In this document: positions 4,138-23,551 of the stretch, one piece after another
Position numbering within the stretch: the first letter of the stretch is position 1
How the letters are laid out: every line of letters begins with the position of its first letter
Source: an uncultured Paracoccaceae bacterium
GTDB lineage: Bacteria > Pseudomonadota > Alphaproteobacteria > Rhodobacterales > Rhodobacteraceae
DNA length: 64,000 nucleotides
Direction of reading: 5' to 3'
Assembly (NCBI GenBank): GCA_947497985.1
Contig: CANMIX010000005.1
Location: 186,001-250,000, forward strand
The notes under the pieces: model-generated
Seen by the model: only the letters and a program-made list of their open reading frames with translations
Told to the model about the DNA's origin: nothing
Database searches by the model: none
Program-made: the position numbers and the translations under genes

Positions 4138-5313
4138 GTGAGGGATGGCATGGCGCGGCTTCAGATCAACAATGCAACGGCGCGCGCGCTTTGGCTGACC
4201 TCGCATGGGCTGGCGCAAACGCCCACCGGTGCGCTGGATGTGTTGGGGATGATCAAACAGCTGGGGTTCGTTCAGCTCGACACAATCCAAGTTGTATCTC
4301 GGGCGCATCATCACATCCTATGGAGCCGCAATCAGAACTATCGCGAACACATGTTGGACCCGTTGTTGCGCCAAGAGCGGCAGGTGTTTGAGCATTTTAC
4401 CCATGATGCTTCGGTCTTGCCGATGGATAGCTTGCCCATGTGGCAGCGCCAGTTTCAGCGCAAAAAGGAACAGGTGGGCCGGTCCAATTGGTTCGGCAAA
4501 CATCTCGACCCTGATCTGATTGCCGAGGTGCTGCGCCGCATCACCGAAGAGGGGCCATTGTCGACGCAGAACTTTGATACCAAGGTCAAAGGTGACAAGG
4601 CCATGTGGCAGCGCCCCCCGCATAAGATGGTGCTCGACTATCTGTGGTATTCCGGTGTGCTGGCGACATCTCATCGGAATGGGTTCAAGAAGTTCTATGA
4701 TCTGGCCGAGCGTGTCTTTCCTCAGGATCTGCCACGTCTCAGCGACGCCGAGCAGGTGCATCAACTGTGCCACGCCGCCCTGGATCGGATCGGGTTTGGT
4801 ACTTTGAGTGAGATCCGTAAATTCTGGGAGGCCTGTGAAACGCCAGAAGTGAAAGCTTGGGCCGACAGCACCGCAGCCGAGCTGGTGGCGGTTGATGTTC
4901 AAGGCGCTGATGGCAGTTGGACGCAGGCGTTGGCCTGTGCAGAGATTGAAACACGGATCAAGGAGCTGAAAGACCCCACCACACGCTTGCGGATTTTGAA
5001 CCCTTTTGATCCAGCCATTCGCGACCGCGTGCGCCTGGCCCGGTTGTTTGGCTTTGACTACACCGTTGAAATGTTCGTACCCGCTGCCAAACGCAAATGG
5101 GGTTATTATGTCTACCCTCTGCTGGAAGGGGGGAAATTCGTAGGCCGGATCGAAGCCAAGGGCGACCGGTCAAAAGGCACTTTGACATTGACTAATTTCT
5201 GGACCGAGACAGAGCGTCTCAAGACACCCAAACGGAATGCCAAACTTGACGCAGAACTGATGCGGTTGGCAAAGCTTGCTGGTTTGGAAACTGTGGTTTG
5301 GGACTTAAGCTGA
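4138..5313 (+). CDS. YcaQ-type winged-helix DNA glycosylase
   Basis: A 391-residue HTH_42 superfamily protein, close to the usual YcaQ length of about 400. The catalytic QxD motif is visible as QLD at residues 46-48 within GFVQLDTIQVVSR, followed by a region resembling the family's HxxH-like segment (FEHFTHDASVLPM), and further on by ILNPFDPAIRDR and YYVYPLLEGGKFVGRIEAK. YcaQ enzymes unhook DNA interstrand crosslinks formed by alkylating agents. The start is GTG 4138 or ATG 4150; the latter has AGGG six bases upstream. No toxin or antibiotic biosynthesis genes adjoin it, so general DNA-damage resistance is the simplest reading. Confidence 0.85.
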   Translation: MRDGMARLQINNATARALWLTSHGLAQTPTGALDVLGMIKQLGFVQLDTIQVVSRAHHHILWSRNQNYREHMLDPLLRQERQVFEHFTHDASVLPMDSLPMWQRQFQRKKEQVGRSNWFGKHLDPDLIAEVLRRITEEGPLSTQNFDTKVKGDKAMWQRPPHKMVLDYLWYSGVLATSHRNGFKKFYDLAERVFPQDLPRLSDAEQVHQLCHAALDRIGFGTLSEIRKFWEACETPEVKAWADSTAAELVAVDVQGADGSWTQALACAEIETRIKELKDPTTRLRILNPFDPAIRDRVRLARLFGFDYTVEMFVPAAKRKWGYYVYPLLEGGKFVGRIEAKGDRSKGTLTLTNFWTETERLKTPKRNAKLDAELMRLAKLAGLETVVWDLS

Positions 5314-5419: not shown

Positions 5420-6439
5420 TCAGACCTCAGAGATGTGAACAGTCCGGCGGTCTTCGGCAGAGCGCGCGATGGCTTCTAGGACTTCGATATTGTGGACCAG
5501 CTCATCGTTGGTAAAGGCATAAGGCGCTTCTCCTAATGCAGCCAGGCGAAAGGCTTGCAGGTTGTGCATCACAGCGTCTTCCCATTCAAATGTCTCGGTT
5601 GTGACGCCAGACCCCGTGCGCGCTTTGTGATAGCGAACCTTGCCGCCGGGAGTATCGGGGTGGGTTTCGTTGATCACTTCGACCCATTCATCGGTGCCAA
5701 AGACATGCATCCGGATGAAATGCGGCGTGTGCAAAACGGCGCTGAGGGTGGCGGTCATTCCGGCTTTAAAGCCGAGCTGTGCGGTCACCACATCACCGGT
5801 CTCCCAGCCGAGTGACCGGTCAGACGTCATCGCTTGAACGGTTTCAACCGGACCAAAGAAAGAGATCAACAAATCGGTCAGGTGAATACCCATCGCAGTC
5901 ATGCCTGCAGCGGGGGAAATCGCTTTGGTCGTTCGCCAGTCGCCTTGAGGCACATTGATTAGCTTGTCATGGCTAAAGGCGGCCTCTGCATGCATAATTT
6001 TGCCCACGGATTGGGACGTGATCGCGTCTTTCAAGGCCACCAATGCAGGTTCAAACCGGCGTTCATGACCGATGCCGAGCTGCACGCCAGCCTCAATACA
6101 AGCCGCAACCGAACGGCGCGCGCTGGCGGCGGTCAGGCCTAAAGGTTTTTCGCAAAACACATGCACACCCGCTGCGGCGCAGGCGATGATCTGTTCTTCG
6201 TGCAGCGGGTTCGGCGTGGTTAGGATCACCGCGTCCACATCCGGCAATTTCAGTGCGTCATCCAGATCGGTGACCAAGGTTAGCCCTTCATCGGCGATCT
6301 TTGCATGGTTGCCTTCGAAAGGTTCTACAATCGCGCGGATTTGAAAGTCCTCACTGCCTTTCAAACGGGTGGCGATATGGCTGCCCCACCATCCAAATCC
6401 GGCAATTACGACGTTAAACGGTACGGTCTTCATCGTCAT
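5420..6439 (-). CDS. Gfo/Idh/MocA family oxidoreductase
   Basis: A 339-residue NAD(P)-dependent oxidoreductase. The N-terminal Rossmann fold starts with VVIAGFGWWG, and the family EKP motif appears as VFCEKPLGL near residues 93-101 with the conserved lysine. The C-terminal part is the beta-sheet substrate domain. The start ATG overlaps the stop of the flavin reductase gene by four bases (ATGA), so the two are translationally coupled on the minus strand. Members oxidise or reduce sugars, inositols and many other compounds, so the substrate cannot be given. The operon context suggests it handles an intermediate of the monooxygenase pathway. Confidence 0.88.
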   Translation of the reverse strand: MTMKTVPFNVVIAGFGWWGSHIATRLKGSEDFQIRAIVEPFEGNHAKIADEGLTLVTDLDDALKLPDVDAVILTTPNPLHEEQIIACAAAGVHVFCEKPLGLTAASARRSVAACIEAGVQLGIGHERRFEPALVALKDAITSQSVGKIMHAEAAFSHDKLINVPQGDWRTTKAISPAAGMTAMGIHLTDLLISFFGPVETVQAMTSDRSLGWETGDVVTAQLGFKAGMTATLSAVLHTPHFIRMHVFGTDEWVEVINETHPDTPGGKVRYHKARTGSGVTTETFEWEDAVMHNLQAFRLAALGEAPYAFTNDELVHNIEVLEAIARSAEDRRTVHISEV

Positions 6440-6951
6440 GCTTGCTCCCCGAGCTGGGCAAATTTACCGCGAAAGAACAACAGCGGCGCTTTGTCGTCGT
6501 TACCACGAAAGTTCAGAACCTTGCCGATATAGATCTCGTGGTCGCCGCCTTCGATTGTACTGTAGGTCTCACATTCCAGCACCGCCGCCGCACGATCGAG
6601 AACCGGCACATCTTTTACGCCGGGTGTCCAATCGACCGAGGCGAATTTATCTTCGGACGGACGGGAGAAGTTCATCGCCAGATCCGCTGACTCCGCGCAC
6701 AGGATGTTGATGGCAAAATGCCCGTGATGGCGGAACGCGCTTAGGCTGGGGGCTGTCAGCGCCAGGTTCCAGGCCACAAGCGCCGGGTCCAGCGAGACCG
6801 AAGAAAATGAATTGGCGGCCAAGCCCACCGGGGCGCCATTCTCAGCCCGCGTTGTAACAACAGTGACTCCGGTTGCGAACTGCCCAAAGACGTTTCTCAG
6901 GGCGATCGGGTCGAAACTCGGGGCTTCATCCGGGCTCGTATGCGCGTTCAT
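6436..6951 (-). CDS. Flavin reductase family protein (flavin donor for a monooxygenase)
   Basis: A 171-residue FMN-binding split-barrel protein. It shows the typical features FATGVTVVTT, GLAANSFSSVSLDP and FAINIL near the N-terminal half, as in HpaC-like reductases. It supplies reduced FMN or FAD to a partner oxygenase, and the LLM-class monooxygenase starting divergently at 7181 is the obvious partner. The open frame reaches 7050, but ATG 6951 (MNAHTSPDEAPSF) fits the family length. It is coupled by ATGA overlap to the oxidoreductase gene downstream. Confidence 0.88.
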   Translation of the reverse strand: MNAHTSPDEAPSFDPIALRNVFGQFATGVTVVTTRAENGAPVGLAANSFSSVSLDPALVAWNLALTAPSLSAFRHHGHFAINILCAESADLAMNFSRPSEDKFASVDWTPGVKDVPVLDRAAAVLECETYSTIEGGDHEIYIGKVLNFRGNDDKAPLLFFRGKFAQLGEQA

Positions 6952-7180
6952 CAGGATCTCCAAACTTAGAGTTTTCAGAACGATCCCAAAAATATGCCAT
7001 TTCCACAACTTATGTAATCTGATGCACGACTTAAGAAAACTTGATGGCAAAGACCGGGCGGCTCAGAGAATGCGAGCTGAGGTGTATCAGAAAAATTGAG
7101 AACTGGCATAAGAAACCATCATTTTCACTGCTGTGGCGCTTCGTGTTTTATCGGGTTCAGATTTATTGGAGGAGGGGCGC

Positions 7181-8290
7181 ATGCAGCTATCATTTTTCAC
7201 GATGCCTATTCATCCGGTCGGAAAACCGGTTTGGCAAAGCCTGCAAGAAGACCGCGAAGCCTTTATCCTGGCGGACAAACTCGGCTTTGTGGAAGGGTAC
7301 TGCGGCGAACATACAACCGACCGGGCCGAAATCATCACCTCGACCGTGGCGTTCATGGCCAGTCTCGCGTCAGAGACCAAGAATATCATCCTTGGGACGG
7401 GCACTGTGAACATGCCCAACTCGCACCCCGCGCGGGTTGCAGCTGAGATTGCGATGCTGGACCATCTGTTAAAAGGGCGTCTGCACTTTGGTATTTCGCC
7501 CGGTGGTTTGCTGTCTGATGCCGAGATCTTTGGCAATCTGGACAAGGACCGCAATGCGATGTTCATCGAATGCATCAACATGGTTCTGCAGATCTGGGAA
7601 GGCGAGCCGCCCTATAATCTCAAAGGGGAGTATTTCGAGGTCTCCACCGAACGAACGATGATGCCTGAAATCGGCCAGGGTGCGATCATCAAACCCTATC
7701 AAGATCCACACCCACCTATCGTGGGCACTGTTGTTGCCCCCTTTTCAAAAGGGGTAACGGCGATGGCGGCCCGCGGATGGGAGCCGATCTCGGCGAACTT
7801 CCTGCTGCCCAAGTGGGTAAAAACCCATTGGCCCAACTACAAAGAAGGCTGTGAGCAGGGAGGACGTGAAGCCAATTTCGAGAACTGGAGCGTGGCCAAA
7901 AACATCTGTGTCGCCGATGACATGGCAACGGCGCGGGCTTATGCACGCGACCCTGACAGCCCCTATGTGCACTATTACGCGCAACTGTTGACCAAACTGC
8001 GCGCGGGTGGCCGCCTGAACCTGTTCAAAGAAGATCAGAATATGTCAGATGACGAGGTGACGCTGGACTACGTCATGGACAAGCTGGTGATCTATGGCGA
8101 TCCCTCCAGCGTGGCTGATCAGGTCCTGGCCTTCCACGATGAAGTCGGCCCCTTTGGCAAGCTGGTCTATGCGGGTCATGACTGGGCGGATCGGGATCTG
8201 GGGCGCAATTCGATGATCTTGATGGCGGAAAAAGTTCTACCGCAAATCAACACAGCGCTTGGCGCAACGGGTCTTGGGGCGCAGACATGA
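7181..8290 (+). CDS. LLM class flavin-dependent monooxygenase
   Basis: A 369-residue luciferase-like TIM-barrel protein. It starts MQLSFFTMPIHP, with GGAGGAGG eight bases before ATG 7181. The region AFMASLASETKNIILGTGT and the following HPARVAAEIAMLDHL are typical of the class, and ISPGG is the flavin-binding glycine stretch. Such enzymes use reduced flavin and oxygen to insert one oxygen atom or cleave C-C, C-S or C-N bonds. The flavin reductase gene lies divergently only 229 bases away. The stop overlaps the hydrolase start by ATGA. The substrate is unknown; an alkanal/limonene-type annotation would be over-specific. Confidence 0.9.
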   Translation: MQLSFFTMPIHPVGKPVWQSLQEDREAFILADKLGFVEGYCGEHTTDRAEIITSTVAFMASLASETKNIILGTGTVNMPNSHPARVAAEIAMLDHLLKGRLHFGISPGGLLSDAEIFGNLDKDRNAMFIECINMVLQIWEGEPPYNLKGEYFEVSTERTMMPEIGQGAIIKPYQDPHPPIVGTVVAPFSKGVTAMAARGWEPISANFLLPKWVKTHWPNYKEGCEQGGREANFENWSVAKNICVADDMATARAYARDPDSPYVHYYAQLLTKLRAGGRLNLFKEDQNMSDDEVTLDYVMDKLVIYGDPSSVADQVLAFHDEVGPFGKLVYAGHDWADRDLGRNSMILMAEKVLPQINTALGATGLGAQT

Positions 8291-9114
8291 CTACGATTGA
8301 TACAGGCAGAACAACCGGAAAGCTGACGCTTTTGGACGGAACCCGGCTGCATTATTGCACCGAAGGCAAGCCAGATGGCGATTGGATCGTCCTGTCTAAC
8401 TCGCTCGCCACTGACTTGCGACTGTGGGACGCCGAAGTGCTTTTCTTGTCCAAGACCATGCGTGTGTTGCGATACGATGTGCGCGGCCACGGACAAAGCG
8501 ACGCGGCACCGGGTCCCTATAATTTTGATCAGCTGTGCGACGATCTGGTGCAGCTGATGGATCACCTGTCGATTGCAAAGGCAGATGTCATGGGCATCTC
8601 GCTGGGCGGGATGACTGCGCTGGGGATGGGGATCAAACACCCGGGCCGTGTGCGGCGCATCTTGTGCTGTGATGCGCGCGCTGATGCGCCCGATCCGTAC
8701 AAGGCGATTTGGGACAATAACATCGCGCGTCTTCATGCCGAAAATCTGGCCGCGTTGTGCGAACCCACGCTGGAGCGCTGGTTCACCGGGCCTTATCTGG
8801 CGGATGCGGCCAACACTTCCCAGCTGGACAAGGTGCGCGACATGTTCAACACAACCGCGCCCGAAGGCTATGAGGGTGTTGCGCGCTGTTTGCAAAGTCT
8901 CGATCTCAAAGGCGGTTTGACGAACCTCAAACACCCGGCGTTGTTCGTGACCGGTGCCAATGATCTGGCGGCGCCCGTCGCCGTTATGCAGGAGATGGCA
9001 GAGCTGGCGGTGAACGGGCAGTTCCACGCGATTGAGGACGCGGCGCATCTGTCCAACCTCGAACAGCCCGAAGCCTTTGCCAAGATCATCACCACATTCT
9101 TGGCCAACACTTGA
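8287..9114 (+). CDS. Alpha/beta hydrolase, 3-oxoadipate enol-lactonase-like
   Basis: A 275-residue alpha/beta-hydrolase. The nucleophile elbow GISLGG places the serine at 105; Asp226 (GANDLAAP) and His254 (DAAHLSNLEQP) complete the triad. The overall pattern (LHYCTEGKPDGDWIVLSNSL, DVRGHGQSD, DAAHLSNLEQPEAF) resembles PcaD-type enol-lactonases. No other protocatechuate-pathway gene is nearby, so the actual substrate is more likely an ester or lactone produced by the co-transcribed flavin monooxygenase, as in Baeyer-Villiger-type pathways. It is translationally coupled to the LLM gene. Confidence 0.88.
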   Translation: MTTIDTGRTTGKLTLLDGTRLHYCTEGKPDGDWIVLSNSLATDLRLWDAEVLFLSKTMRVLRYDVRGHGQSDAAPGPYNFDQLCDDLVQLMDHLSIAKADVMGISLGGMTALGMGIKHPGRVRRILCCDARADAPDPYKAIWDNNIARLHAENLAALCEPTLERWFTGPYLADAANTSQLDKVRDMFNTTAPEGYEGVARCLQSLDLKGGLTNLKHPALFVTGANDLAAPVAVMQEMAELAVNGQFHAIEDAAHLSNLEQPEAFAKIITTFLANT

Positions 9115-9148
9115 TCGAGCGGAAGCGTTTCTAAAAGGAGGAAACATT

Positions 9149-9622
9149 ATGGCGGTGAAAGAAAAACCGATCTGGAAGTTTAAGGTCACAGGCGCACAGG
9201 AGACGTCGACCAAGTCGACCGCGACTGCACGGGGCAAGTCGGTGGTGATTGATGAGCCCATCCAACGTGGCGGCACGGATGAGGGGCCGATGCCGGTGGA
9301 ATATGTATTCATGGGGCTGCTGGGCTGTACGCAGGTGATTTCGAACAAACTGGCGGCGGCCAATGGCGTTGTGTTCACCAGCATGGATATCGACATTTCG
9401 GTCACGATGGACAGCCACGGCACCCGGTTGATCAACCCAATCGACATCCCGTTCCCCGAGGTGACGTTGGACATTGTGGTCGCTTATGACGGTCCGCGCG
9501 AAGGTGCGATTGCGGTTGTGCAAAAGCTCAAACATCACTGTGCAGTCTCAAAAATGCTGCAGGAATCCGGTACGCGTGTCATCGAGAACTGGGTTATGAA
9601 CGGCGAAGCAATCGTCGCTTAA
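9149..9622 (+). CDS. OsmC family protein
   Basis: A 157-residue OsmC/Ohr-fold protein. ATG 9149 has AAGGAGG eight bases upstream. It contains the family segment GPMPVEYVFMGLLGCTQV with the first conserved cysteine, and HHCAVSKML with the second. These two cysteines are the redox-active pair in OsmC/Ohr peroxidases, which reduce organic hydroperoxides. Position between a hydrolase and a BKACE gene suggests protection against peroxides formed by the oxygenase, or an acyl-handling role. Both ideas are inference. Confidence 0.88.
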   Translation: MAVKEKPIWKFKVTGAQETSTKSTATARGKSVVIDEPIQRGGTDEGPMPVEYVFMGLLGCTQVISNKLAAANGVVFTSMDIDISVTMDSHGTRLINPIDIPFPEVTLDIVVAYDGPREGAIAVVQKLKHHCAVSKMLQESGTRVIENWVMNGEAIVA

Positions 9623-9649
9623 ACCATACCTGAAAAGGGAGGAAATCCA

Positions 9650-10426
9650 TTGGCGCTAACCGTGCTTCCGAAAATCATGGTGGCGCCAAATGGCGCGCGA
9701 AAAACCAAAGAAGACCATCCAAACCTGCCGGTCACGATCGCGGAGGTCGTGACTGAAGCCGCGCGTTGTTATACGGCCGGGGCAGGGGCAGTGCATGCTC
9801 ATGTGCGCGACGCGGAGGGGGCGCATGTTCTGGATGCGGGCCTTTACTCCGAGCTGTTACAGGAACTGGCGACCCAGGTTCCGGAAATGGTCGCGCAGAT
9901 CACCACCGAAGCCGTGGGCCGTTATTCACCGGAAGAACAACGCGCCTGTGTCGCGGCCGTTAAACCGCGCTGCGTCTCTATTGCGTTGCGGGAAATGACA
10001 CCGGGACAGGACGACGCCGTATTGCGCCGCTTCTATCACGATCTCTGCGCGGATGATGTGAACGTCCAACATATCCTTTATGCGCCTGAAGAAATCACCC
10101 AGCTTGCCCATTTTGTGCAGTCGGGCATCATTCCGGCGCAGAACTCAGAAATGCTGATCGTGCTTGGGCGATACCAAAAGGACCAGCAGAGCACGGCTGA
10201 TGACCTGCCGCCGTTTATTTCGAATTTTCCATCGCTGCCGCATCAATTGCCCTGGGCCATCTGCGCCTTTGGATCACGGGAGACCGAATGTCTGAAGACC
10301 GCGATTTCTCTGGGCGGCAAAACACGTATCGGTTTTGAGAACAACGTCTTCAATGCGGATGGATCAGTTGCGGAGACGAACGCCATGCGTGTATCAGAAC
10401 TGATCAGCGCAATCGGTGAAGAATAA
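9650..10426 (+). CDS. BKACE family enzyme (3-keto-5-aminohexanoate cleavage type)
   Basis: A 258-residue TIM-barrel enzyme of the beta-keto acid cleavage family. It has the metal-site signature AGAGAVHAHVRDAEGAHVLD, with the HxH pair, and QITTEAVGRYSPEEQ. Members use acetyl-CoA to cleave beta-keto acids into acetoacetate and a CoA ester. The length is slightly short of the usual 270-310. Translation probably starts at TTG 9650, which has GGGAGG ten bases upstream; no closer ATG exists. It is probably co-transcribed with the LLM, hydrolase and OsmC genes and would cleave a beta-keto acid made upstream. Confidence 0.85.
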   Translation: MALTVLPKIMVAPNGARKTKEDHPNLPVTIAEVVTEAARCYTAGAGAVHAHVRDAEGAHVLDAGLYSELLQELATQVPEMVAQITTEAVGRYSPEEQRACVAAVKPRCVSIALREMTPGQDDAVLRRFYHDLCADDVNVQHILYAPEEITQLAHFVQSGIIPAQNSEMLIVLGRYQKDQQSTADDLPPFISNFPSLPHQLPWAICAFGSRETECLKTAISLGGKTRIGFENNVFNADGSVAETNAMRVSELISAIGEE

Positions 10427-10455
10427 AAATTCGCCCAACGAAAGAGCCGACGCCC

Positions 10456-11343
10456 GTGGCCGAAATATTTGAAGTCATTACTCCGATTCTGTTGATCACG
10501 TTGATCGGATATTTTTTCGGCCGCTCCAAGGTTGAGCTGCATTCAGCGACGCTAAGTACGACCGTTATTATGGTGGCGATGCCATCGCTTGTATTCTCGT
10601 CTTTGACCTCGCTGGATATGACGCTGCAACGCTTGTTTGGCGTCTTGGGGGCGGCGGCTTTATGTATGACGCTGTCGTTTGCCTTATCTTACATTGTAGT
10701 GCGCGCACTTGGGTTTTCCGTGCGGACTTTCTTGCCCAGCCTGCTGTTCCCGAATTCCGGAAACATGGGGCTGCCGCTGGTCTTTATTGCCTTTGGGGAT
10801 GTTGGGCTTAGCTTGGCTGTGGCCTATTTTGTTCTTATCTCCTTGACCCAGCATACAGTGGGAGTCGCGATTGCTTCGGGACAATACAGTATCGGCTCCT
10901 TGCTGCGCCAACCTTTGATCTATGCGGTATTTGCGGTTTTTGGCGTCATGTTGACCAGGGTCACAGTCCCCACAATTGTTGCGACCACAACCGAGTTATT
11001 GGGGGGTATGATGATCCCCGCCATGCTGATCCTGCTCGGTAACTCTTTGGCAAAGCTCAAAGTATCTGATTTCATGCCAGCCTTCGCGATTGCTGTGGGT
11101 CGCCTTGTAATTGGGGCTTCTGCAGCAATAGCCACCATCTGGCTGCTTGGCCTGACAGGTATGTTGGCCGGCGTCGTGTTTATGCTGTCGACCATGCCTG
11201 CGGCGGTTATGAGCTATGTCTACGCCGAACGGTTTCAGCGCGACCCGGAAAAGATCGCGGGCGTGGTTGTTCTGTCCACGGTTTTGACATTCGCCGCGTT
11301 GCCGGGCGTGATCTGGATCGCGAAACAGATCGCGCTGCATTGA
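10456..11343 (+). CDS. AEC family transporter (auxin efflux carrier type)
   Basis: A 295-residue integral membrane protein with about ten hydrophobic helices in two halves. The family's central motif is visible as LFPNSGNMGLPL, and the C-terminal half has TMPAAVMSYVYAERF. AEC carriers move organic acids, malonate or auxin-like compounds. It begins at GTG 10456, 30 bases after the BKACE stop, in the same direction, and may export or import an acid of the pathway. A second family member lies at 54756-55688. Confidence 0.88.
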   Translation: MAEIFEVITPILLITLIGYFFGRSKVELHSATLSTTVIMVAMPSLVFSSLTSLDMTLQRLFGVLGAAALCMTLSFALSYIVVRALGFSVRTFLPSLLFPNSGNMGLPLVFIAFGDVGLSLAVAYFVLISLTQHTVGVAIASGQYSIGSLLRQPLIYAVFAVFGVMLTRVTVPTIVATTTELLGGMMIPAMLILLGNSLAKLKVSDFMPAFAIAVGRLVIGASAAIATIWLLGLTGMLAGVVFMLSTMPAAVMSYVYAERFQRDPEKIAGVVVLSTVLTFAALPGVIWIAKQIALH

Positions 11344-11420
11344 TCTTGACGACGTGACAGGCCACACTGGCTGTCCGCACAGGACACCGTCCAAAGCGTT
11401 TAGGGAGAGGTAGGGGCCAG

Positions 11421-12359
11421 ATGCTGCGAAATCTAAAGCTTCAACACTTGCGCTACTTTGTTGCGGTCTACGAAGAACGTTCGATCACCGCTGCCGCCAA
11501 CCGTGTGAACGCCACGCAATCCGGTGTCAGCATGCAGATCCGCGACTTTGAAGAGGTCCTGGGGCTCAAGCTGTTTGACCGCACTTCGACCGGAGTTTTG
11601 CCAACCAAAAGCGGCGAACAGATTTACATGCGGGCCAACCGCGTGCTGCGTGAAGTCGAAGAATTTGCCATTGATGTCGAGAACCACACAGACCAGCTTT
11701 ATGGGACCGTGCGAGCAGGGATCATGCCGACTTTTGCAAAGTCCATTCTGGCCCCGACATTGATGAGCTTTGCCGATATGCATCCTTTTGTGGATGTGAA
11801 CATCATCGAAGGCTATAGCGAGACGCTGACGGAAAAGGTCGCCAAAGGGACATTGGATTTTGCGGTGGTACCCGGCGGTCAACTGCCCCTTGGTGTGCGC
11901 AGCACCCATGTGGACACAGATATCGAAGTGTTGGTGCAAAAGCGCAAAGACACTGCGGGCGATGACCCGATGAAGTTCCAACTGTCCACCGCAGAGCCGC
12001 TCAATCTGGTGTTACCCGGGCCTGGCAACGCGCGTCGTGCCAAGATTGACGGCTACCTGAACAACATGTGCCGCTCCAAGCATTCGATCCTGGAATTGGA
12101 CAGTATGATGGCCACGTTTGACCTGCTGGAAAAGGGGGAATACGCCTCGGTTCTACCAGGGTGTTTGTCACTGCCCAGCCTCGAAGATTCTGGCATGATG
12201 CTGACGCCGCTGCTGAACCCGATCTTACAGGTTGACTACCTTCTGATCGAACCCGCGTCAAAGGCGAGCCCAAAAGTGGCCACTGTTTTTGCAAATGTCT
12301 TGTGTGATGAGATTCGAAAATGGTGTGCCGCAGGTCGTGAAAGCTTTTTAAGCGACTGA
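11421..12359 (+). CDS. LysR family transcriptional regulator
   Basis: A 312-residue LysR protein. The N-terminal helix-turn-helix is LQHLRYFVAVYEERSITAAANRVNATQSGVSMQI-like (about residues 6-40), followed by a linker and a periplasmic-binding-like effector domain. GGGAGAGGTAGGGG precedes ATG 11421. It lies between the BKACE/AEC genes and the TctBAC transporter genes, all in the same direction, so it is the likely effector-responsive regulator of this block. The inducer is unknown but may be the TTT substrate. Confidence 0.9.
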   Translation: MLRNLKLQHLRYFVAVYEERSITAAANRVNATQSGVSMQIRDFEEVLGLKLFDRTSTGVLPTKSGEQIYMRANRVLREVEEFAIDVENHTDQLYGTVRAGIMPTFAKSILAPTLMSFADMHPFVDVNIIEGYSETLTEKVAKGTLDFAVVPGGQLPLGVRSTHVDTDIEVLVQKRKDTAGDDPMKFQLSTAEPLNLVLPGPGNARRAKIDGYLNNMCRSKHSILELDSMMATFDLLEKGEYASVLPGCLSLPSLEDSGMMLTPLLNPILQVDYLLIEPASKASPKVATVFANVLCDEIRKWCAAGRESFLSD

Positions 12360-12668
12360 AATTAAACAAGTCTATTTTACTAAATGAAACCTCACCCGAC
12401 ACAGAGCTGCGTCCGGGGCTGCAGGTGTCCTACGCGTCAACTGGATGCCAGTCTTGTCGTTGAAAACACACAAATGGGCATCAGTGAAACTGATTTCAGC
12501 CATAAGAACACATAAGTTGTTTTGACGGCTCGAATTCGTATCATCCAAAGACATCAATTGAGATTTTGAAGACTTAGGGGAGAAAGTCGACAGAAAATCA
12601 TGGGCAACGGCGCTCCGTGAGGAGCGCGAAAGCCCATACAAACAGTGGACTTAGGGAGGGTTCCACCG
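12360..12668 (+). promoter_or_regulatory. Leader region of the TctBAC genes with a two-tier hairpin at 12600-12637
   Basis: No gene is seen in this gap. At its downstream end ATGGGC (12600-12605) pairs with GCCCAT (12632-12637), enclosing a 4x4 internal loop and a second perfect stem GCGCTCC/GGAGCGC (12610-12616 and 12621-12627) capped by GTGA. The structure ends about 31 bases before the likely TTG start and lacks a T tract, so it is more likely a leader element than a terminator. Confidence 0.45.
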
Positions 12669-13181
12669 TTGGGAACACATAAACTCACGACCGAGCAAAG
12701 GATCTTGCTCGCTCTGTTCGTATTCGCGGCCTTGTCGGTCGTCTTCATTGGCAAGATGGTCGGTAAACCAAAGCTCTTGTTTGGTCAGTCGCTCACATCG
12801 ATCGATCCAAACCTGTTTCCGCTGATCATCCTGTGTGGGCTGGCGGCGTTGAGCGCTGCGTTCTTCATTTGGGTCAAGAGAAACCCGGATGGGATCGAAG
12901 AAGAGAAGATGCCGACAATCGCATTGGTGCGCGGGGCGGCGCTTTTTGGTCTGATGACCGTATACGCCTTGCTTATGGAGCCGGTTGGGTTCTGGATTTC
13001 ATCCTGTTTTGCCCTCTCGACCGTCTCTTGGTTGGCGGGCAATCGCTCCATTGCGCAGATTATGGGCCTGGCAGTTCTGGCGCCCCCGCTTTTGTACCTT
13101 GCAGCAACACGCCTGTTGGCAGTGTCCTTGCCTGAACTGAGCGCGATCGAATTCTTCTATGCCCGTATTCTTGGTGGATAA
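12669..13181 (+). CDS. tctB: Tripartite tricarboxylate transporter, small membrane subunit TctB
   Basis: A 170-residue protein with about four transmembrane helices (ILLALFVFAALSVVFIG, FPLIILCGLAALSAAFFIW, ALFGLMTVYALLMEPVGFW, and a last one near LAVLAPPLLYLAA). This matches the small membrane subunit of TTT importers, which are secondary, solute-binding-protein-dependent transporters. The likely start is TTG 12669 with AGGGAGGG eight bases upstream; a GTG at 12645 would add eight residues but has no clear ribosome-binding site. It is followed by TctA and TctC homologues, giving a complete system. Confidence 0.85.
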   Translation: MGTHKLTTEQRILLALFVFAALSVVFIGKMVGKPKLLFGQSLTSIDPNLFPLIILCGLAALSAAFFIWVKRNPDGIEEEKMPTIALVRGAALFGLMTVYALLMEPVGFWISSCFALSTVSWLAGNRSIAQIMGLAVLAPPLLYLAATRLLAVSLPELSAIEFFYARILGG

Positions 13182-13223
13182 GGCGCATGGACAAGACACT
13201 GAACTACACGAGGCAGAAGACCT

Positions 13224-14705
13224 ATGCTTGAGCAATTCATAACAGGCTTTGGAATGGCGCTGCGCCTGGACACTTTTATGCTGATGGGAGCAGGGTTGTT
13301 CGGCGGAATGCTGGTCGGCGCATTGCCGGGATTCACCACCCTGATGGCCATGGCGATCCTGCTGCCTATTTCCTTCTTTCTTGAGCCCATCGTAGGCATC
13401 CCCTTTTTGTTAGGGGTCTACAAAGGCGGTATTTTTGGCGGCTCGATCCCGGCGATCCTGGTCTCCATGCCGGGCACCGGTGCCGCCGTGGCGACATCGC
13501 GGGACGGCTACAAGCTGACCCAACAGGGTAAGTCACGCAAGGCGCTCGACATGGCGCTGTTTTCCTCGGTCTTTGGGGATATGAGCAGCGACATCTTCAC
13601 CATGCTGATGATCTTTCCGATTGCCTATCTTGTGATGCAATTTGGCCCGCCAGAGCTGTTCGCGGTTCTGCTGCTGAGCCTGGTGATCATCGCCGCAACC
13701 TCAACACAGAACCCGGTCAAAAGCCTGATCATGATGTTGTTTGGTCTGTGGCTGTCCTTCATCGGCACTGACCCTCTGGGTGGGGTTGAACGGTTTACCT
13801 TTGGGATCTTTGACCTCAAATCAGGCATCCCGCTTCTGCCCATGCTGATCGGTGTCTTTGCGATCCCTGAAATTGCTGGTGTTGTGATGCGCAACGAAGG
13901 CGCCCGCAAGCTGGCCACGCTGGTTGGGGAACGCCTGACCTTTGCAGAATACCGCCGCTGCTTCAAAACCATTTGCCGGTCGACGGTGATTGGCACAGGT
14001 ATCGGCACCATTCCCGGACTGGGTCAGGTGGTTGCAGCCATGATGGGCTATTCGGCTGCCAAAAACGCATCAGACCATCCGGAAACCTTTGGCGAAGGCG
14101 AGCTGGAAGGTATCGCCGCGGCTGAGGCTGCAAACAATGCGGTGAACGGCCCGACCATGGTGCCGCTGCTGACACTGGGCATTCCCGGTGACAACGTGAC
14201 CGCGATCCTGCTGGGTGCTTTTGTGGCGCAGGGCTTGCGCCCCGGTCCGCAGCTGTTCGAAGAACAAGGCGCAACCGTCTTTGCGATCCTGATCGCCATG
14301 GTCTTTGCCAATATCATGTTCCTGGCCATCGGTTACCTGTCGATCCCGTTCTTTTCACGCATTGTGCAGATCAAGACGTCAGTGCTGATCCCAATTGTGA
14401 TCATGTTCGCCTTTGCCGGAACCTTTGTGTTCCGTTCTGACAACTTCGATCTCTTGATGCTGGTTGCCTTTGGTATCTTTGGATTGGTTGCCAAGGCCGG
14501 CAAGTTTGACGTGATGCCAATGGTCATGGGCTTCATCCTTGGGCCGCCGATGGAATACGCCTTTGGCCAAACCATGGCGATGGGTAACGGTGCGACATTG
14601 TCCTTCTTGTTTGAAGAACGGCTTGGAGCCATCGGTGTCCTGATCGCGACACCCCTTATTGGACTTACTCTGTGGAGGAGGATGCGAGCGGTCGTCTCAG
14701 GCTAA
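13224..14705 (+). CDS. tctA: Tripartite tricarboxylate transporter permease TctA
   Basis: A 493-residue permease with around eleven or twelve hydrophobic helices, the usual TctA length. It has the two conserved glycine/proline motifs that mark the inverted repeats: GALPGFTTLMAMAILLP near the N terminus and GTIPGLGQVVAAMMGY in the middle, plus LGIPGDNVTAILLGAF and QGLRPGPQLF. It forms the channel with TctB and receives substrate from TctC. The gene lies 42 bases after tctB and 73 bases before tctC. Confidence 0.93.
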   Translation: MLEQFITGFGMALRLDTFMLMGAGLFGGMLVGALPGFTTLMAMAILLPISFFLEPIVGIPFLLGVYKGGIFGGSIPAILVSMPGTGAAVATSRDGYKLTQQGKSRKALDMALFSSVFGDMSSDIFTMLMIFPIAYLVMQFGPPELFAVLLLSLVIIAATSTQNPVKSLIMMLFGLWLSFIGTDPLGGVERFTFGIFDLKSGIPLLPMLIGVFAIPEIAGVVMRNEGARKLATLVGERLTFAEYRRCFKTICRSTVIGTGIGTIPGLGQVVAAMMGYSAAKNASDHPETFGEGELEGIAAAEAANNAVNGPTMVPLLTLGIPGDNVTAILLGAFVAQGLRPGPQLFEEQGATVFAILIAMVFANIMFLAIGYLSIPFFSRIVQIKTSVLIPIVIMFAFAGTFVFRSDNFDLLMLVAFGIFGLVAKAGKFDVMPMVMGFILGPPMEYAFGQTMAMGNGATLSFLFEERLGAIGVLIATPLIGLTLWRRMRAVVSG

Positions 14706-14778
14706 TGCGCTGAGGCTGGGAGATGTCACCTGCCCAAAGATCACTCGAAATAAACAAGGTGCAAACAGGAGGAGAAAC

Positions 14779-15741
14779 ATGTTTAATTTTTCGCTAAAGA
14801 AGCTGGCGGTTTCACTGGGCTTTGCTGCTCTGATGACGCCAACACTTGCTCTCGCTGAATACCCGGAAAAACCAATCACGATGGTTATTCCCTTTGGCGC
14901 TGGCGGCTCGCATGACTTGAATTCGCGTGTGATCACGTCGATCATTCCCACCTACCTGAACCAGGCGATGATTGTGCGTCTGACACCTGGCGCAGGTGGT
15001 CAAAAAGGCACGCAAGAAGTCGCAAACGCGACGGCTGATGGTTACACACTGCTGTTCACCCACAACTATGTGGACATGCTGCAGCAATATGTCGAAGACC
15101 TGCCTTATGATCCGCTGGAAGACTTCATTCCAATTGCGCGTGTGAATTATGCGCCGATGGGCGTGGTGGTGCGCGCCGACAGCCCTTACAAGAGCTTTGA
15201 GGATCTGGTCGAAGCGGCCACAATGGATCCGGGTTCGGTTCGCATGTCGCATTCCGGAAACTGGGGTGCGCAATTTGTACCTGCGGCGCAGATCATGCGG
15301 GCGCGTGGCATCCACTTTAATCTGGTGCCTTACAAAGGGGGCGGACCGGCAATGCAGGCCCTGTTGGCAGGCGATGCCGAAGTCACTATGGGCTTCCCCT
15401 CCACACTCAGCGGGCAAATCGAGTCTGGCGCAATTCGTGTTCTGGCGACCGCAGGTGCAGAACGCATGTATGACGATGTTCCAACATTCGCCGAAGTTGG
15501 CGTCGAAGGCGACATTGGCTTTATGCACCGCGTTCTGGTGGCTCCGAAAGGCACCCCACAGGAAGCCGTGGACAAGCTGACCGAAGCCTTTGCGGCATTG
15601 GTCGAAGACACCACCTTCACCCGTATGATGGGGCGTTTGAACGAAACCGTCGATCTGATGGATGGCGAGAGCTACCAGAAGCTGCGCGAAGAGCAGGCGC
15701 ATGCCTACGAAGATCTGGTGAAAGCGCTGACAAGCCAATAA
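14779..15741 (+). CDS. tctC: TTT solute-binding protein (TctC/Bug family)
   Basis: A 320-residue periplasmic binding protein. A Sec signal peptide (KKLAVSLGFAALMTPTLALA) precedes the mature start EYPEKPITMVIPFGAGG, the classical Bug-family opening. PYKGGGPAMQALLAGDAEV and DVPTFAEVGVEG are further family marks. AGGAGGAGA precedes ATG 14779. It should bind a carboxylate for the TctAB permease; Bug proteins bind dicarboxylates, aromatic acids, nicotinate and others, so specificity cannot be read. The paired catabolic genes upstream give the best clue. Confidence 0.93.
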   Translation: MFNFSLKKLAVSLGFAALMTPTLALAEYPEKPITMVIPFGAGGSHDLNSRVITSIIPTYLNQAMIVRLTPGAGGQKGTQEVANATADGYTLLFTHNYVDMLQQYVEDLPYDPLEDFIPIARVNYAPMGVVVRADSPYKSFEDLVEAATMDPGSVRMSHSGNWGAQFVPAAQIMRARGIHFNLVPYKGGGPAMQALLAGDAEVTMGFPSTLSGQIESGAIRVLATAGAERMYDDVPTFAEVGVEGDIGFMHRVLVAPKGTPQEAVDKLTEAFAALVEDTTFTRMMGRLNETVDLMDGESYQKLREEQAHAYEDLVKALTSQ

Positions 15742-15865
15742 CCGCAACAGCCGAAGTGGCGGCGCATGACCCATGTGTCGCCATTTCTATGACTACCACC
15801 AACGTAGCGGCCCCACCCAATCAAAGCACAGGTCTGCAAAATAGGGTCGCAGAGATAGGATCATC

Positions 15866-16936
15866 ATGAGACAAGTAGACGTAGCAGTAATCGGAACCGG
15901 CTGGTGCGGTGGCATTCGGGCTGAAACCCTCTCCAGATCAGCATTGGTAGACCGGCTGCATATCTGCGAAATTCGCCCCGAACGTCTGGCCGAAGTGAAA
16001 GAGCTGACCAATCCGGCAACTGCAACGCTGGACTATCAAGAGATCGTCAACAACCCCGATATCGAAGTGGTCTATATCTCAACCACGCCAGAGCAGTCCC
16101 ATTATCCTATCGCCAAGGCCTGCCTGAAAGCGGGCAAAAACGTGCTGTTGGAAAAACCCTTGGCGCTGGAGCTGTCTGAGGCGGATGAGCTGATTGCCCT
16201 GTCCAAAGAGAAGGGGGTGAAATTCACCATCGGCTATTCGCAGCGTTTTAATCCCAAGATTGCCTATGCCAAGAAATCCATCGCCGAGGGCAAACTGGGC
16301 AGTGTGGTCAACGTCATGGTCAGCCGTCACCTCTCGCGCAACCTGGGCAAAAAGATCGCCAACCGGGTGAAGCTCTCTCCGGCCGCGATGGAATCCACTC
16401 ATGATCTGGATTTTGTGTTCTGGCTGTTGGCGCCTGCAAAACCTGTCCGCGTCTACTCCCAAGGTGCCTATGGCTACATGAAGGATCTGAACGGGTCCTA
16501 TGACTGCATGTGGACCACCGTGACCATGGATGATGGTACCCTGGTTGTGATCGGTGGGGGTTGGAACCTGCCGCCGAGCTATCCGAATTATTGTGGCACC
16601 TGGATCGAAATCACCGGCACCGAAGGGGCGCTGATCCTGGACGACACCAGCCGCGACAATTGGCTGAATACGGTCAAGGACGGCACCCAATACCCGATGT
16701 CGACCATGCCGGGCGAGCAGGTTGACCACGCCTTTGCCGGTCAGATGGGCCCTGAGACGCTGCACTTCCTCGAAGCGGTGCTGCTGGATGGCGACGTCAT
16801 GGTTGAACCCGAACATGCCCGCATGGTGATGGAGACCTATTCTGCGGCAGATGTCTCGGCCGAGGTCGACGAACCCATAAAACTGCCACTATCCAATCAG
16901 GCGCTCGCAAAGCTGGCCGATCTTAAGGGTGGCTAA
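15866..16936 (+). CDS. Gfo/Idh/MocA family oxidoreductase
   Basis: A 356-residue NAD(P)-dependent oxidoreductase. The Rossmann motif is VAVIGTGWCGGIRAETL at residues 6-22, and the conserved EKP is in VLLEKPLAL. AGGATCATC precedes the ATG. It is the second family member in this block (the first is at 5420-6439) and follows tctC by 124 bases in the same direction. A possible role is redox conversion of the imported substrate. A clear terminator follows, closing the region. Confidence 0.88.
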   Translation: MRQVDVAVIGTGWCGGIRAETLSRSALVDRLHICEIRPERLAEVKELTNPATATLDYQEIVNNPDIEVVYISTTPEQSHYPIAKACLKAGKNVLLEKPLALELSEADELIALSKEKGVKFTIGYSQRFNPKIAYAKKSIAEGKLGSVVNVMVSRHLSRNLGKKIANRVKLSPAAMESTHDLDFVFWLLAPAKPVRVYSQGAYGYMKDLNGSYDCMWTTVTMDDGTLVVIGGGWNLPPSYPNYCGTWIEITGTEGALILDDTSRDNWLNTVKDGTQYPMSTMPGEQVDHAFAGQMGPETLHFLEAVLLDGDVMVEPEHARMVMETYSAADVSAEVDEPIKLPLSNQALAKLADLKGG

Positions 16937-17000: not shown

Positions 17001-17025
17001 GAGCGCCCTTATGGGCGCTCTTTTT
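17001..17025 (+). terminator. Rho-independent terminator
   Basis: GAGCGCCC (17001-17008) pairs perfectly with GGGCGCTC (17013-17020) around a TTAT loop, followed by TTTTT. It ends the transcript containing the second Gfo/Idh/MocA gene. Confidence 0.9.
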
Positions 17026-17053: not shown

Positions 17054-18661
17054 CTATTGGCCGGGTGCCTCTGTCGGCGATGTGAGAGCAAGAGCGGGAT
17101 CGCGCACCCATTGATACAGCCAGACTTCTGACAGCTTTTGGGCTTCACCGGCTACATGCGCCGTGAGCTCAACCAAGTCCGCATCCTGCCCATCAATGTC
17201 AAAAAACAGGCGCCAGCGGGTGGTTTTGTCGTCAATCTTGTGCAGCACCACATTGGAGATTTCCCCAGCTGATGTCGCAACTATAGGTACCGGCTCTGCA
17301 TCGCTCGGCATGTCTCCCAACGCGCCACCCTCAAAGTCGACCACAAACTTGCGCAGGTTTGGGTTTGTCACGGGCACGCCAGACGGGCCGCCAACACCGG
17401 TGCGGGTGCTAAAGACATAGGCCAAATCAGAATTCATCAGCGGGGGCAGGGCACCCCAATGCATTTTATAGTTATAGCTGCGGGTGTCGCCGGCTTGTGG
17501 TGCATCATCCGGGATCCAGAACATGACGATATTGTCGTCTATCTCCAGCTCCGCCGGGATTTCAACCAGACGCACGCTGCCCGCACCCCAATCCCCAATG
17601 GGTTCGATCATCACAGAAGGGCGGTTGTGGTATTGCGCGCCAGCATCTTGATAGTCGTCATAGGAACGATCACGTTGGATAAGGCCGAACTGCGCCATCT
17701 CCGTGTCTGGCAAATAGGAGTTGGAGACGCGCGGCGGGTTGTTCAACGGGCGCAGCAGTTCGTCGCCAGACGCAAGGACCACTTTCAATGCATCGGTGTC
17801 GTGCACCTGCGGGCGGAAGTCATCAAAGCGGCGTTCGGAATGTTCCGAGAAATAGAACATTGAGGTCAGCGGCGCGAGGCCAAGTTGTTTGACCGCATTG
17901 CGGAAATACAGTTCCGATTCCACTTCGATCACCGTGTCATCGCCGGGTTTGATCACAAATCGATAGGCTCCAGTGACCGAGGCGCTGTCCATTGCCGCGT
18001 AGATCTCCAACCCGTCATCCGCGCTTTCAGGTTTCACAACCCAAAAGGCCGAGAACCGTGGAAACTCTTCCGGCCCCCCCAACCATGTGTCAATCGACAG
18101 GCCACGTGCAGACAATCCGTAGCTGTTGCCTCGACCCAGCGCGCGGAAATAGCTCGCCCCCAGGAAGGTGATCAGCTCATCGTATTTTGTCGTACTGTTG
18201 AGAGGCGCGGTGACTTTTAGCCCCGCAATCCCCGGCAGCTCAGCATGGGCTGGAACGCGGGTCGCAAGGTCGTTGCGGTATTCAAAATCATCGGTCGAGA
18301 ACACCATAGGCGTCGCGGTGCTGTTGGAGATTTCAAAAATCTCAACAGGTTCCTGAAACAACCAACCAGGGTGAAAGGCCTGTAATTGAAAGGGGGATGC
18401 GTCCTTGTTCCAGCGCGCCGCCTCTGGCAGGAAATAGATATTGCGGTAGTCGTCGTAAGACAGTTGGTCGAGGAAGCTTGCAAGTTTCGCAGGCGGTGTA
18501 TCCGGCAGCGCTGCTTTTGCCTTCATGTAGGATTTGAGCCAATCGAACGAGAACGGTTCAGCTTCTGCAGTGGTTTGCGCGATGGAAGTGGACGGAACAG
18601 CCGTGGTGGCCAAAAGCATCGCAACAAAGCTGCGTCGGGTCAAAGAAGGTGCAAACCGCAT
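17054..18661 (-). CDS. Periplasmic glucan biosynthesis protein, OpgG/MdoG family
   Basis: A 535-residue exported protein of the MdoG family, which acts in the periplasm in synthesis or modification of osmoregulated periplasmic glucans. The N terminus LTRRSFVAMLLATTAVPSTSIAQ is a Tat-type signal with the twin arginine. The family pattern continues with FDWLKSYMKAKA, SYDDYRNIYFLPEAARW, FHPGWLFQEPVEIFEI, SYFRALGRGNSYGLSARGL and FYFSEHSERRFDDFRPQVHDTDAL. No opgH glucosyltransferase is adjacent, so the gene acts alone here or with a distant partner. OpgD-like function cannot be excluded. Confidence 0.92.
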   Translation of the reverse strand: MRFAPSLTRRSFVAMLLATTAVPSTSIAQTTAEAEPFSFDWLKSYMKAKAALPDTPPAKLASFLDQLSYDDYRNIYFLPEAARWNKDASPFQLQAFHPGWLFQEPVEIFEISNSTATPMVFSTDDFEYRNDLATRVPAHAELPGIAGLKVTAPLNSTTKYDELITFLGASYFRALGRGNSYGLSARGLSIDTWLGGPEEFPRFSAFWVVKPESADDGLEIYAAMDSASVTGAYRFVIKPGDDTVIEVESELYFRNAVKQLGLAPLTSMFYFSEHSERRFDDFRPQVHDTDALKVVLASGDELLRPLNNPPRVSNSYLPDTEMAQFGLIQRDRSYDDYQDAGAQYHNRPSVMIEPIGDWGAGSVRLVEIPAELEIDDNIVMFWIPDDAPQAGDTRSYNYKMHWGALPPLMNSDLAYVFSTRTGVGGPSGVPVTNPNLRKFVVDFEGGALGDMPSDAEPVPIVATSAGEISNVVLHKIDDKTTRWRLFFDIDGQDADLVELTAHVAGEAQKLSEVWLYQWVRDPALALTSPTEAPGQ

Positions 18662-19709: not shown

Positions 19710-20693
19710 TCAGAATTCGATTTGTGGTTTCACATGCGCGCGTGTCTGCGGCACATTTGGCAGAGCGCAGAGCATTTCGTACAGATATTCCGCGGCAATG
19801 ATGGCGGTATTTCCGGTTGTGTCAAAAGAAGGTGCAACCTCGACAAGGTCCGCACCAACAAGGTTCAGACCCGCGCAGCCGCGAATGATTTCCAACCCCT
19901 GTACGGTGGTCAACCCGCCAACCTCGACAGTGCCGGTGCCGGGGGCAAACCCGGGGTCCAGACTGTCGATGTCAAAGGACAGGTAAACAGGCGTGTCGCC
20001 GATGCGGTCACGGATCTGAGCCATCAGCGGTTTCAACGATTTGTGCCAGCAGTCTTCGGCCTGAATACAAGTCCAGCCCTTGGAACGGCCCCAATCAAAA
20101 TCATCGGCAGCATAGCCGCTGCCCCGCAACCCGATCTGAAACACTTTGTCATTGTCCAACAAACCATCATCATAGGCGCGCCGGAAGGGGCAGCCATGTG
20201 CGATGCTTTCACCAAACATTTCATCATTGGTGTCCGAATGTGCATCCACATGGATCAAGGCAACAGGCCCGTGTTTTGCGGCAATCGCGCGCAGGATGGG
20301 CCAGGTCAATGTGTGATCCCCGCCCAGCGTCAAGGGCAGCGCATCATGTGACAGCACTTCTTTGTAAAACGCCGTGATGATGTCGACGGATTTCTTCAGA
20401 TCAAACAGGTTGATCGGCACATCGCCAATATCTGCCACCTGCAGATGTTCAAACGGCGCCGCACCCGTTGCCATATTATAGGGGCGGATCATGCGGCTTT
20501 CATCGCGGATCTGGCGCGGCCCCAGCCGGGTTCCTGGCCGGTTCGAGGCACCGATATCCATCGGAATACCGATGAAACAGGCATCCAAATCCGCTGCACT
20601 GTCCTGGCTTGGCAGGCGCATCATCGTTGCGGGTCCGCCCGAACGCGGCATTTCATTGCCGCCCAGAGGTTGGTTGAAAGAAGGCGTAGTCAT
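19710..20693 (-). CDS. Agmatinase-family ureohydrolase
   Basis: A 327-residue arginase/agmatinase-fold hydrolase. The binuclear Mn ligands are all present: His127 (LGGDHT), Asp150/His152/Asp154 (VDAHSD), and Asp241/Asp243 (SFDIDSLDPGFAPGTGT). Such enzymes hydrolyse a guanidino compound to urea and an amine: agmatine to putrescine, guanidinobutyrate, guanidinopropionate, or guanidine itself. The location between a polyamine-type ABC importer and an aldolase-like gene argues for catabolism of an imported guanidino compound rather than putrescine biosynthesis. A second family member lies at 61881-62834. Confidence 0.85.
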   Translation of the reverse strand: MTTPSFNQPLGGNEMPRSGGPATMMRLPSQDSAADLDACFIGIPMDIGASNRPGTRLGPRQIRDESRMIRPYNMATGAAPFEHLQVADIGDVPINLFDLKKSVDIITAFYKEVLSHDALPLTLGGDHTLTWPILRAIAAKHGPVALIHVDAHSDTNDEMFGESIAHGCPFRRAYDDGLLDNDKVFQIGLRGSGYAADDFDWGRSKGWTCIQAEDCWHKSLKPLMAQIRDRIGDTPVYLSFDIDSLDPGFAPGTGTVEVGGLTTVQGLEIIRGCAGLNLVGADLVEVAPSFDTTGNTAIIAAEYLYEMLCALPNVPQTRAHVKPQIEF

Positions 20694-20747
20694 GAGTGCA
20701 CCTGTATTTTGGGGTACGCAAATTGGGTCGAGTGTATTGGGCGTGGG

Positions 20748-22363: not shown

Positions 22364-22411
22364 GGGGCGTCGTGTGGTCGTACGCGAGATCCCCGCGCAC
22401 GACCCCTTTCA

Positions 22412-23524: not shown

Positions 23525-23551
23525 TTTGATACCTTTCTGTTGGAGGGCTGA

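Follow-up and report, generated by a model that had tools for sequence, protein, structure and literature searches.

The gene cluster described here spans positions 5420-16936 of a 64,000-nucleotide stretch of DNA, called the window below, from an uncultured Paracoccaceae bacterium. The window is carried by contig 5 of a 4.19-Mb genome (47 contigs). An earlier note had read these positions, from the letters alone, as an oxygenolytic catabolic cluster with its own importer. Its gene list holds: all twelve genes are present in the order described, and the family models pass the Pfam cut-offs. Gene starts were corrected by eye for the flavin reductase (6951, not 7050), the luciferase-like monooxygenase (LLM; 7181, not 7133), OsmC (9149) and TctC (14779). 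The features are as follows.

5420..6439, minus strand: MocA1, a Gfo/Idh/MocA NAD(P) dehydrogenase, part of the system core (PF01408/PF22725)
6436..6951, minus strand: flavin reductase, predicted supplier of reduced flavin (PF01613; start inferred)
7085-7099: LysR-type box of the divergent promoter, ATC-N9-GAG in the window (alignment of 9 intergenic regions)
7112-7126: conserved element GAAACCATCATTTTC of the divergent promoter (alignment of 9 intergenic regions)
7181..8290, plus strand: LLM, a two-component luciferase-like monooxygenase, probable type II Baeyer-Villiger monooxygenase
8287..9114, plus strand: Hyd, a PcaD-like alpha/beta hydrolase of the enol-lactonase or esterase type (TIGR02427, 235.1 bits; PDB 2xua)
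9149..9622, plus strand: OsmC-family protein, probable thiol peroxidase (PF02566)
9650..10426, plus strand: beta-keto acid cleavage enzyme (BKACE)-family (DUF849) enzyme, Asp-to-Asn subtype (PF05853; motif alignments)
10456..11343, plus strand: AEC-family carrier (PF03547)
11421..12359, plus strand: LysR-type regulator (PF00126 and PF03466)
12645..13181, plus strand: TctB, small membrane subunit of the tripartite tricarboxylate transporter (TTT) importer (PF07331)
13224..14705, plus strand: TctA, large membrane subunit of the TTT importer (PF01970)
14779..15741, plus strand: TctC, periplasmic binding protein (PF03401; best PDB match BugD, 2f5x; start inferred)
15866..16936, plus strand: MocA2, second Gfo/Idh/MocA dehydrogenase (PF01408; DgpA proteins nearest among PDB sequences)
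17001..17020, plus strand: intrinsic-terminator-like stem and T run at the unit end (terminator scan)

The LLM and hydrolase genes overlap by 4 bases. Directly past MocA2, the stem at 17001-17020, with 8 pairs and then a T run, is the strongest terminator-like site of the region; the scan gave 24 sites of this kind, compared with 13.6 in shuffles, so the weaker ones carry little weight. The promoter scan gave fewer sites than in shuffles and was uninformative. The flanking genes encode an AlkZ-like glycosylase (4138-5313) and an MdoG protein (17054-18661). In NCBIfam, no row exceeded its cut-off for ten cluster proteins (among the best 25 rows for the LLM, the hydrolase and LysR), and TctC, TctA and TctB had no match at all. 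In the alignment, the nine LLM-reductase intergenic regions have an ATC-N9-GAT-like box in common, of which the left half reads ATT in two rows, together with a GAAACCATCATTTTC-like element. Judged by this alignment, the elements at 7085-7126 may form a LysR operator.

Conservation and co-inheritance of the cluster

A contig search yielded 80 loci, kept as the best of 180 confirmed. Gene matches at these loci were counted if they covered more than half of the query, overlapping ones were dropped, and the per-gene identity thresholds were set by the analyst. At the 39 loci with an LLM of at least 72% identity, 13 of which are shorter than 20 kb, the companions are LysR (35), the flavin reductase (34), the hydrolase (30), BKACE (24), MocA1 (23), AEC (20), OsmC (18), TctA (18), TctB (17), TctC (13) and MocA2 (9). 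Gene order is that of the window at L035 and L040 and is rearranged at L036, L041, L044, L049 and L069. The outside neighbors do not follow: MdoG is found at 0/39 and agmatinase at 1/39 of these loci, in a check that covered these two outside genes. Because this boundary is kept in relatives, a chance neighborhood of unrelated genes is extremely improbable, even if only 8 of the 80 loci hold LLM, reductase, hydrolase, MocA1, BKACE, OsmC and TctA together at the thresholds used.

The distribution of the genes across 394 genomes of the same family also argues against chance. With ortholog cut-offs at E values of 1e-130 (LLM), 1e-100 (MocA1), 1e-120 (MocA2), 1e-150 (TctA) and 1e-40 (OsmC), LLM was found in 30 genomes, MocA1 in 27 and MocA2 in 14, and LLM is co-resident in 25 of the 27 MocA1 genomes and in 14/14 MocA2 genomes. 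The probability of this co-occurrence by chance, without correction for relatedness, is 2e-32 for MocA1 and 7e-18 for MocA2. TctA is present in 11/30 LLM genomes versus 0/30 controls, and OsmC in 9/30 versus 0/30; the 30 controls were taken from 364 LLM-negative genomes (one of the same genus, two with MocA1 only and 27 in handle order). The set is patchy, since the same-genus genome G674 lacks LLM, MocA1 and MocA2 at the thresholds used. Named strains that carry variant forms include members of Pelagimonas, Yoonia, Tropicimonas and Phaeobacter, and the marine relative Pelagimonas varians DSM 23678 has the full cluster. In a plasmid collection, one of 754 matching records, from Marinovum algicola (75%), exceeds 60% identity to the LLM. 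As a unit the cluster is real and patchily inherited, and the families that the earlier note wished to see co-occur in other genomes are kept together in relatives.

All three subunits, TctA, TctB and TctC, are present, and the tripartite tricarboxylate transporter is complete; the AEC carrier (10456-11343) shares the cluster with this full importer. Among 13 family genomes with an LLM of at least 74% identity, TctA of at least 77% is found in 10, and tripartite ATP-independent periplasmic (TRAP) transporter genes lie beside the LLM in G613 and G725, two of the remaining three, in agreement with an importer that belongs to the cluster. In the third, G694, no TctA or TRAP gene was found in the stretch around the LLM, just an AEC-like gene. 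A TRAP-type set also lies near the LLM at L043, L065, L066, L067, L070, L099 and SAR116-type loci (membrane subunits by eye), and the L066 binding protein matches TRAP DctP structures. The PDB matches of TctC and DctP are too mixed for a ligand to be named.

Some genomes hold the genes apart. MocA1 lies away from LLM in G624, G665, G566 and G767, and MocA2 is on a separate contig from LLM in G624, G626, G448 and G398. In fragmented assemblies such unlinked copies may reflect a contig break; the G624 contigs measure 1.1 and 1.8 Mb, and in G566 MocA1 and LLM are ~2 Mb apart on one contig. These arrangements would fit two adjacent, partly cooperating modules, one of LLM, reductase, hydrolase and LysR and the other of MocA1, MocA2, TctABC and OsmC, with BKACE and AEC recruited. 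G624 is split nearly in this manner: one contig (L152) holds LLM, reductase, hydrolase, BKACE, LysR and TRAP genes, and the other (L153) holds MocA1, MocA2, TctBAC, OsmC, AEC and a second LysR. Similarly, the stretches covered at L050 and L063 contain no MocA or BKACE gene alongside LLM, reductase, LysR and hydrolase, and BKACE of the same type is also found beside an aminotransferase. Two modules are nonetheless rather unlikely: at the thresholds used, MocA2 never occurs without LLM (14/14 with it) and MocA1 rarely does (2/27), even when unlinked, which argues for one shared function.

The oxygenase and a proposed pathway

The LLM has a fold of the bacterial luciferase type, and its best fold match is the solved diketocamphane type II Baeyer-Villiger enzyme. 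His44 and Glu50 of the LLM correspond to the active-site residues His46 and Glu52 of that enzyme and are kept in 38/38 aligned rows (one from the window, 37 from the set of 80 loci). A separate flavin reductase partner is provided by the divergent PF01613 gene, present at 34/39 close loci. This reductase matches the NF045919, HsaB, FerA and p-hydroxyphenylacetate hydroxylase reductase models below cut-off, and a longer form at L048 exceeds the p-hydroxyphenylacetate hydroxylase reductase cut-off (393.1 vs 340). The flavin-dependent oxygenation of the earlier note can be kept and sharpened: the step is most likely a Baeyer-Villiger reaction that follows dehydrogenation. A second, short LLM-like protein (258-295 amino acids, 26-33% identical to part of the window LLM) is encoded in the TRAP-type clusters L065, L066, L151 and L154. 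L067 has a like-placed frame (5810-6790), for which NCBIfam gave no match at 1e-20.

The hydrolase scores 235.1 bits against TIGR02427 (PcaD, 3-oxoadipate enol-lactonase), under the curated cut-off of 255.85, and its counterparts at L067, L049 and L050 score 219.7 to 243.3 bits on the same model. A triad (GxSxGG, Asp and His) is visible by eye. A PcaD-like lactonase next to a lactone-making enzyme would be a chemically sensible pairing. Peroxide and thiol proteins recur at these loci, with OsmC in the window, AhpC/TSA and a glutathione transferase at L066, and a CMD-family protein at L050. Both MocA1 and MocA2 contain NAD-binding and C-terminal domains (PF01408 with PF22725/PF02894) and, by eye, an EKP motif. 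The predicted structure of MocA1 (predicted local distance difference test score of 86.7) is nearest to sugar, inositol and anhydro-sugar dehydrogenases. Taken with the DgpA matches of MocA2, these neighbors suggest a polyhydroxylated or alicyclic substrate.

From the observed gene content, the co-inheritance and the match of the LLM in fold and residues to a proven type II Baeyer-Villiger enzyme, we infer the following reactions, the sequence in which they run, the class of substrate and the mode of control. TctABC, or a TRAP system in some other genomes, would import the acid, and MocA1 and MocA2 would turn secondary alcohols into a ketone. The flavin reductase would pass reduced flavin mononucleotide (FMN) to the LLM, which would insert oxygen beside the ketone and so form a lactone or ester by type II Baeyer-Villiger chemistry. 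Opening of this ester would fall to the PcaD-like hydrolase, OsmC would clear peroxide leaked by the flavin-peroxide enzyme, and the BKACE-family enzyme may then split a 3-oxo acid with acetyl-CoA. LysR would govern the divergent promoter. The interpretation that we tentatively prefer is a catabolic module, probably substrate-induced, with a type II Baeyer-Villiger step and a carboxylate, probably alicyclic or polyhydroxylated, as its substrate. Another role for the LLM, in which it would free sulfite from a sulfonate (a sulfonated sugar or a related compound) as SsuD, MsuD and the sulfoquinovose monooxygenase pathway do, is improbable.

Several observations weigh against the proposed catabolic module. 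The LLM shares only 23-24% identity with the diketocamphane enzyme, and a likeness of fold proves no function. Among four further PDB alignments, the Glu is absent in three (by eye) and present in 8k74, so the His/Glu signature is not exclusive. Of 152 homolog rows, 7 do not span both positions, and His and Glu are found in 145/145 of the rest, which are not independent, at identities down to 33%; these residues therefore do not single out the cluster. Two loci are present twice (L066/L155 and L067/L152), and the class-wide LLM search (65/385 genomes, E value 1e-20) served the residue checks only. By eye, MocA1 and MocA2 both lack the Asp of the classical Gfo/Idh catalytic motif. MocA1 is found without LLM in G515 (a 12.8-kb contig) and G729, and TctA is missing from 19/30 and OsmC from 21/30 LLM genomes at the thresholds used. 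The AEC carrier is without a role in the scheme.

The weakest step of the scheme, and a further point of the same kind, is BKACE. The gene product belongs to the family (PF05853, 185.2 bits vs a cut-off of 24.8), with identities to the window protein of 42-63% within LLM clusters. The Asp that follows the zinc Glu (Asp231 of Kce) is replaced by Asn in 18/18 covering cluster rows (2/20 rows do not span it), and other residues stand in place of the STGG and NFG-type motifs. The zinc ligands His, His and Glu are kept in the covering rows, and a Tyr named in PMC12871164 is aligned in the window protein. The three other BKACE copies of this genome differ at the Asp position: those on contigs C2 and C7 retain Asp, and that on C15 has Asn. 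Moreover, 5/30 LLM-negative genomes (G400, G396, G389, G397 and G410) encode a BKACE that is 50-58% identical to that of the window. An aminotransferase-like gene adjoins it in four of these five (G400, G389, G397 and G410), and in G396 an antisense frame points to one as well. Class III aminotransferase identity (NF005685) is confirmed by the model for one of the four and for the C15 gene; the others are alike by eye. Through this pairing in LLM-negative genomes, the BKACE subtype has an existence apart from the LLM. A BKACE tree did not resolve whether the LLM-linked and aminotransferase-linked forms have one or several origins. The subtype may carry out 3-oxo acid cleavage in both settings or another DUF849 chemistry, as has been recorded for a different enzyme of that family (PMC12871164). 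Thus, of the earlier note's beta-keto acid cleavage enzyme the family stands, and its acetyl-CoA-dependent cleavage is not safe, given the Asp-to-Asn change and equally close copies beside a class III aminotransferase without LLM. The C15 copy belongs to a second operon-like set of the same genome (L144, 4020-10935), which comprises a TRAP fused permease, an RpiR-like regulator (by eye), the Asn-type BKACE and a class III aminotransferase, and for which no matching model names a substrate. Relatives without the LLM (L145, L147, L148 and L149) have the same pairing of BKACE and aminotransferase.

Variation among more distant oxygenase loci

More distant LLM loci offer a different chemistry. Here the LLM would act as two-component ring-cleaving LLM enzymes do, on a carboxylate with an aromatic or N-heterocyclic ring that it either opens or hydroxylates, and the product left for the hydrolase would be of the enol-lactone or N-formyl type. 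Pyridine rings are known to be cleaved by LLM enzymes. At L087 and similar loci, several named SAR116, an LLM of 63-65% identity is accompanied by a molybdenum (Mo) hydroxylase, a flavin adenine dinucleotide (FAD) monooxygenase and two PF04199 cyclases. These loci, of which L087 was the one scanned, also carry a polysaccharide-deacetylase-type protein, a cupin (by eye), a VOC protein and a TRAP transporter. A set with such a Mo hydroxylase, FAD monooxygenase, cyclases and deacetylase-type protein is typical of heterocycle breakdown, and the L087-type cluster looks like a heterocycle pathway; the Mo hydroxylase large subunit is found at 19/80 loci. The hydrolase of the window, nearest to 3-oxoadipate enol-lactonase, would also fit such a route. 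In contrast, at the thresholds used, the cluster's OsmC, BKACE, AEC and Tct genes are absent from all 41 loci with an LLM of 60-72% identity; weaker relatives of OsmC (32-38%) and TctA (31-35%) occur there, with a close MocA2 in 5 and MocA1 in 9. The genes of the window cluster include none for a ring dioxygenase or a Mo hydroxylase and none resembling PcaB/PcaC, and two sugar-type dehydrogenases are unsuited to an aromatic compound. Breakdown of a heterocycle by the window cluster is thus unlikely. For homarine and trigonelline, no comparable gene cluster was found among the open-access papers searched, and these compounds are neither supported nor excluded as substrates.

LLM, reductase, LysR and hydrolase are all retained at loci of the L050 type (L050, L053, L057 and L071) and at L063 (Pseudomaricurvus), and at L050 LeuC-like and HMG-CoA-lyase-like genes accompany this set. 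The bin labels on these alike loci are doubtful (L050 Rhodobacteraceae; L053 and L057 Porticoccaceae; L071 Akkermansiaceae). The trio of LLM, reductase and hydrolase looks like the oldest shared core, with a back end that appears to have been exchanged.

Comparison with described systems

The closest biochemical precedent is 3,6-diketocamphane monooxygenase, encoded on the CAM plasmid of Pseudomonas putida. It is likewise an FMN-dependent two-component LLM with a separate flavin reductase, it acts on a ketone, and it is the enzyme that matches the window LLM best in fold and shares its His and Glu. Camphor is a known substrate of type II Baeyer-Villiger catabolism (PMC4631483), and the camphor product decomposes spontaneously (PMC5395668). 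Unlike the camphor pathway, the window has a hydrolase gene coupled to the LLM and a carboxylate-type importer. In the pdc cluster of Caenibius tardaugens, which acts on progesterone, an LLM was experimentally shown to perform a Baeyer-Villiger reaction (PMC12239570). That system differs in its steroid substrate and in its sole flavin reductase gene, which is far from the pdc cluster, and the available portion of the paper does not mention MocA, BKACE or TTT genes.

Other systems share the logic of the scheme. In Pseudomonas simiae, a lactonase, a dehydrogenase, BKACE and transporters for deoxyribonate lie in one putative operon, and the dehydrogenase is proposed, with genetic evidence, to supply a 3-keto acid for BKACE (PMC6365646). 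That operon differs from the window in having no oxygenase or flavin reductase, a short-chain type dehydrogenase and major facilitator superfamily transporters. For SAR202, which like the window's relatives are marine bacteria, it was hypothesized that a dehydrogenase makes a ketone, a type II Baeyer-Villiger enzyme inserts oxygen and the ring opens to an acid (PMC5395668). That genome-based hypothesis concerns paralog expansions with short-chain dehydrogenases and alicyclic matter, and describes no defined cluster with an importer and regulator. The window hydrolase and flavin reductase match the RutD and RutF models far under cut-off, and PcaD fits the hydrolase much better. The Rut pyrimidine pathway also unites an LLM, a flavin reductase and an alpha/beta hydrolase; no RutB- or RutC-like gene is among the twelve of the window cluster.

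In agreement with the earlier note, no described pathway with this gene set was recognized among the open-access papers searched, a collection without most subscription papers; nothing relevant was found there on BKACE with LLM, on TTT with flavin reductase or on the whole family set. That the cluster represents a new degradation route for a carboxylate or ketone is plausible but unproven. A more specific proposal, which we regard as somewhat doubtful, is an undescribed, patchily distributed marine alphaproteobacterial pathway. An imported acid of alicyclic or cyclitol-like type would receive a ketone group from the two sugar-type dehydrogenases, it would be opened by a type II Baeyer-Villiger enzyme with a dedicated esterase, and carbon release would be finished by a BKACE subtype with an altered active site. 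On the basis of genome content, marine bacteria have been proposed to open alicyclic organic matter with flavin monooxygenases that insert oxygen (PMC5395668). The window offers a compact, co-inherited set of importer, candidate ketone-forming enzymes, oxygenase, reductase, hydrolase and regulator. If the proposed module is correct, it would be a genetically tractable example of the oxygen-insertion route hypothesized for recalcitrant marine organic matter, with the periplasmic binding protein TctC as a direct handle on the substrate.

Elsewhere in the window, an agmatinase-family gene lies beside a polyamine-type ABC transporter (19710-24634, minus strand), and a second arginase-family gene is located at the far end (61881-62834, plus strand). 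A fatty acid desaturase family protein (PF00487) is encoded at 26646-27629 (plus strand). Finally, the G+C content falls to 0.484 at 38001-40000 (0.52-0.61 otherwise in the window), a stretch that lies upstream of and extends into a chemoreceptor gene (39310-41547; dCache, HAMP and MCP signal domains).

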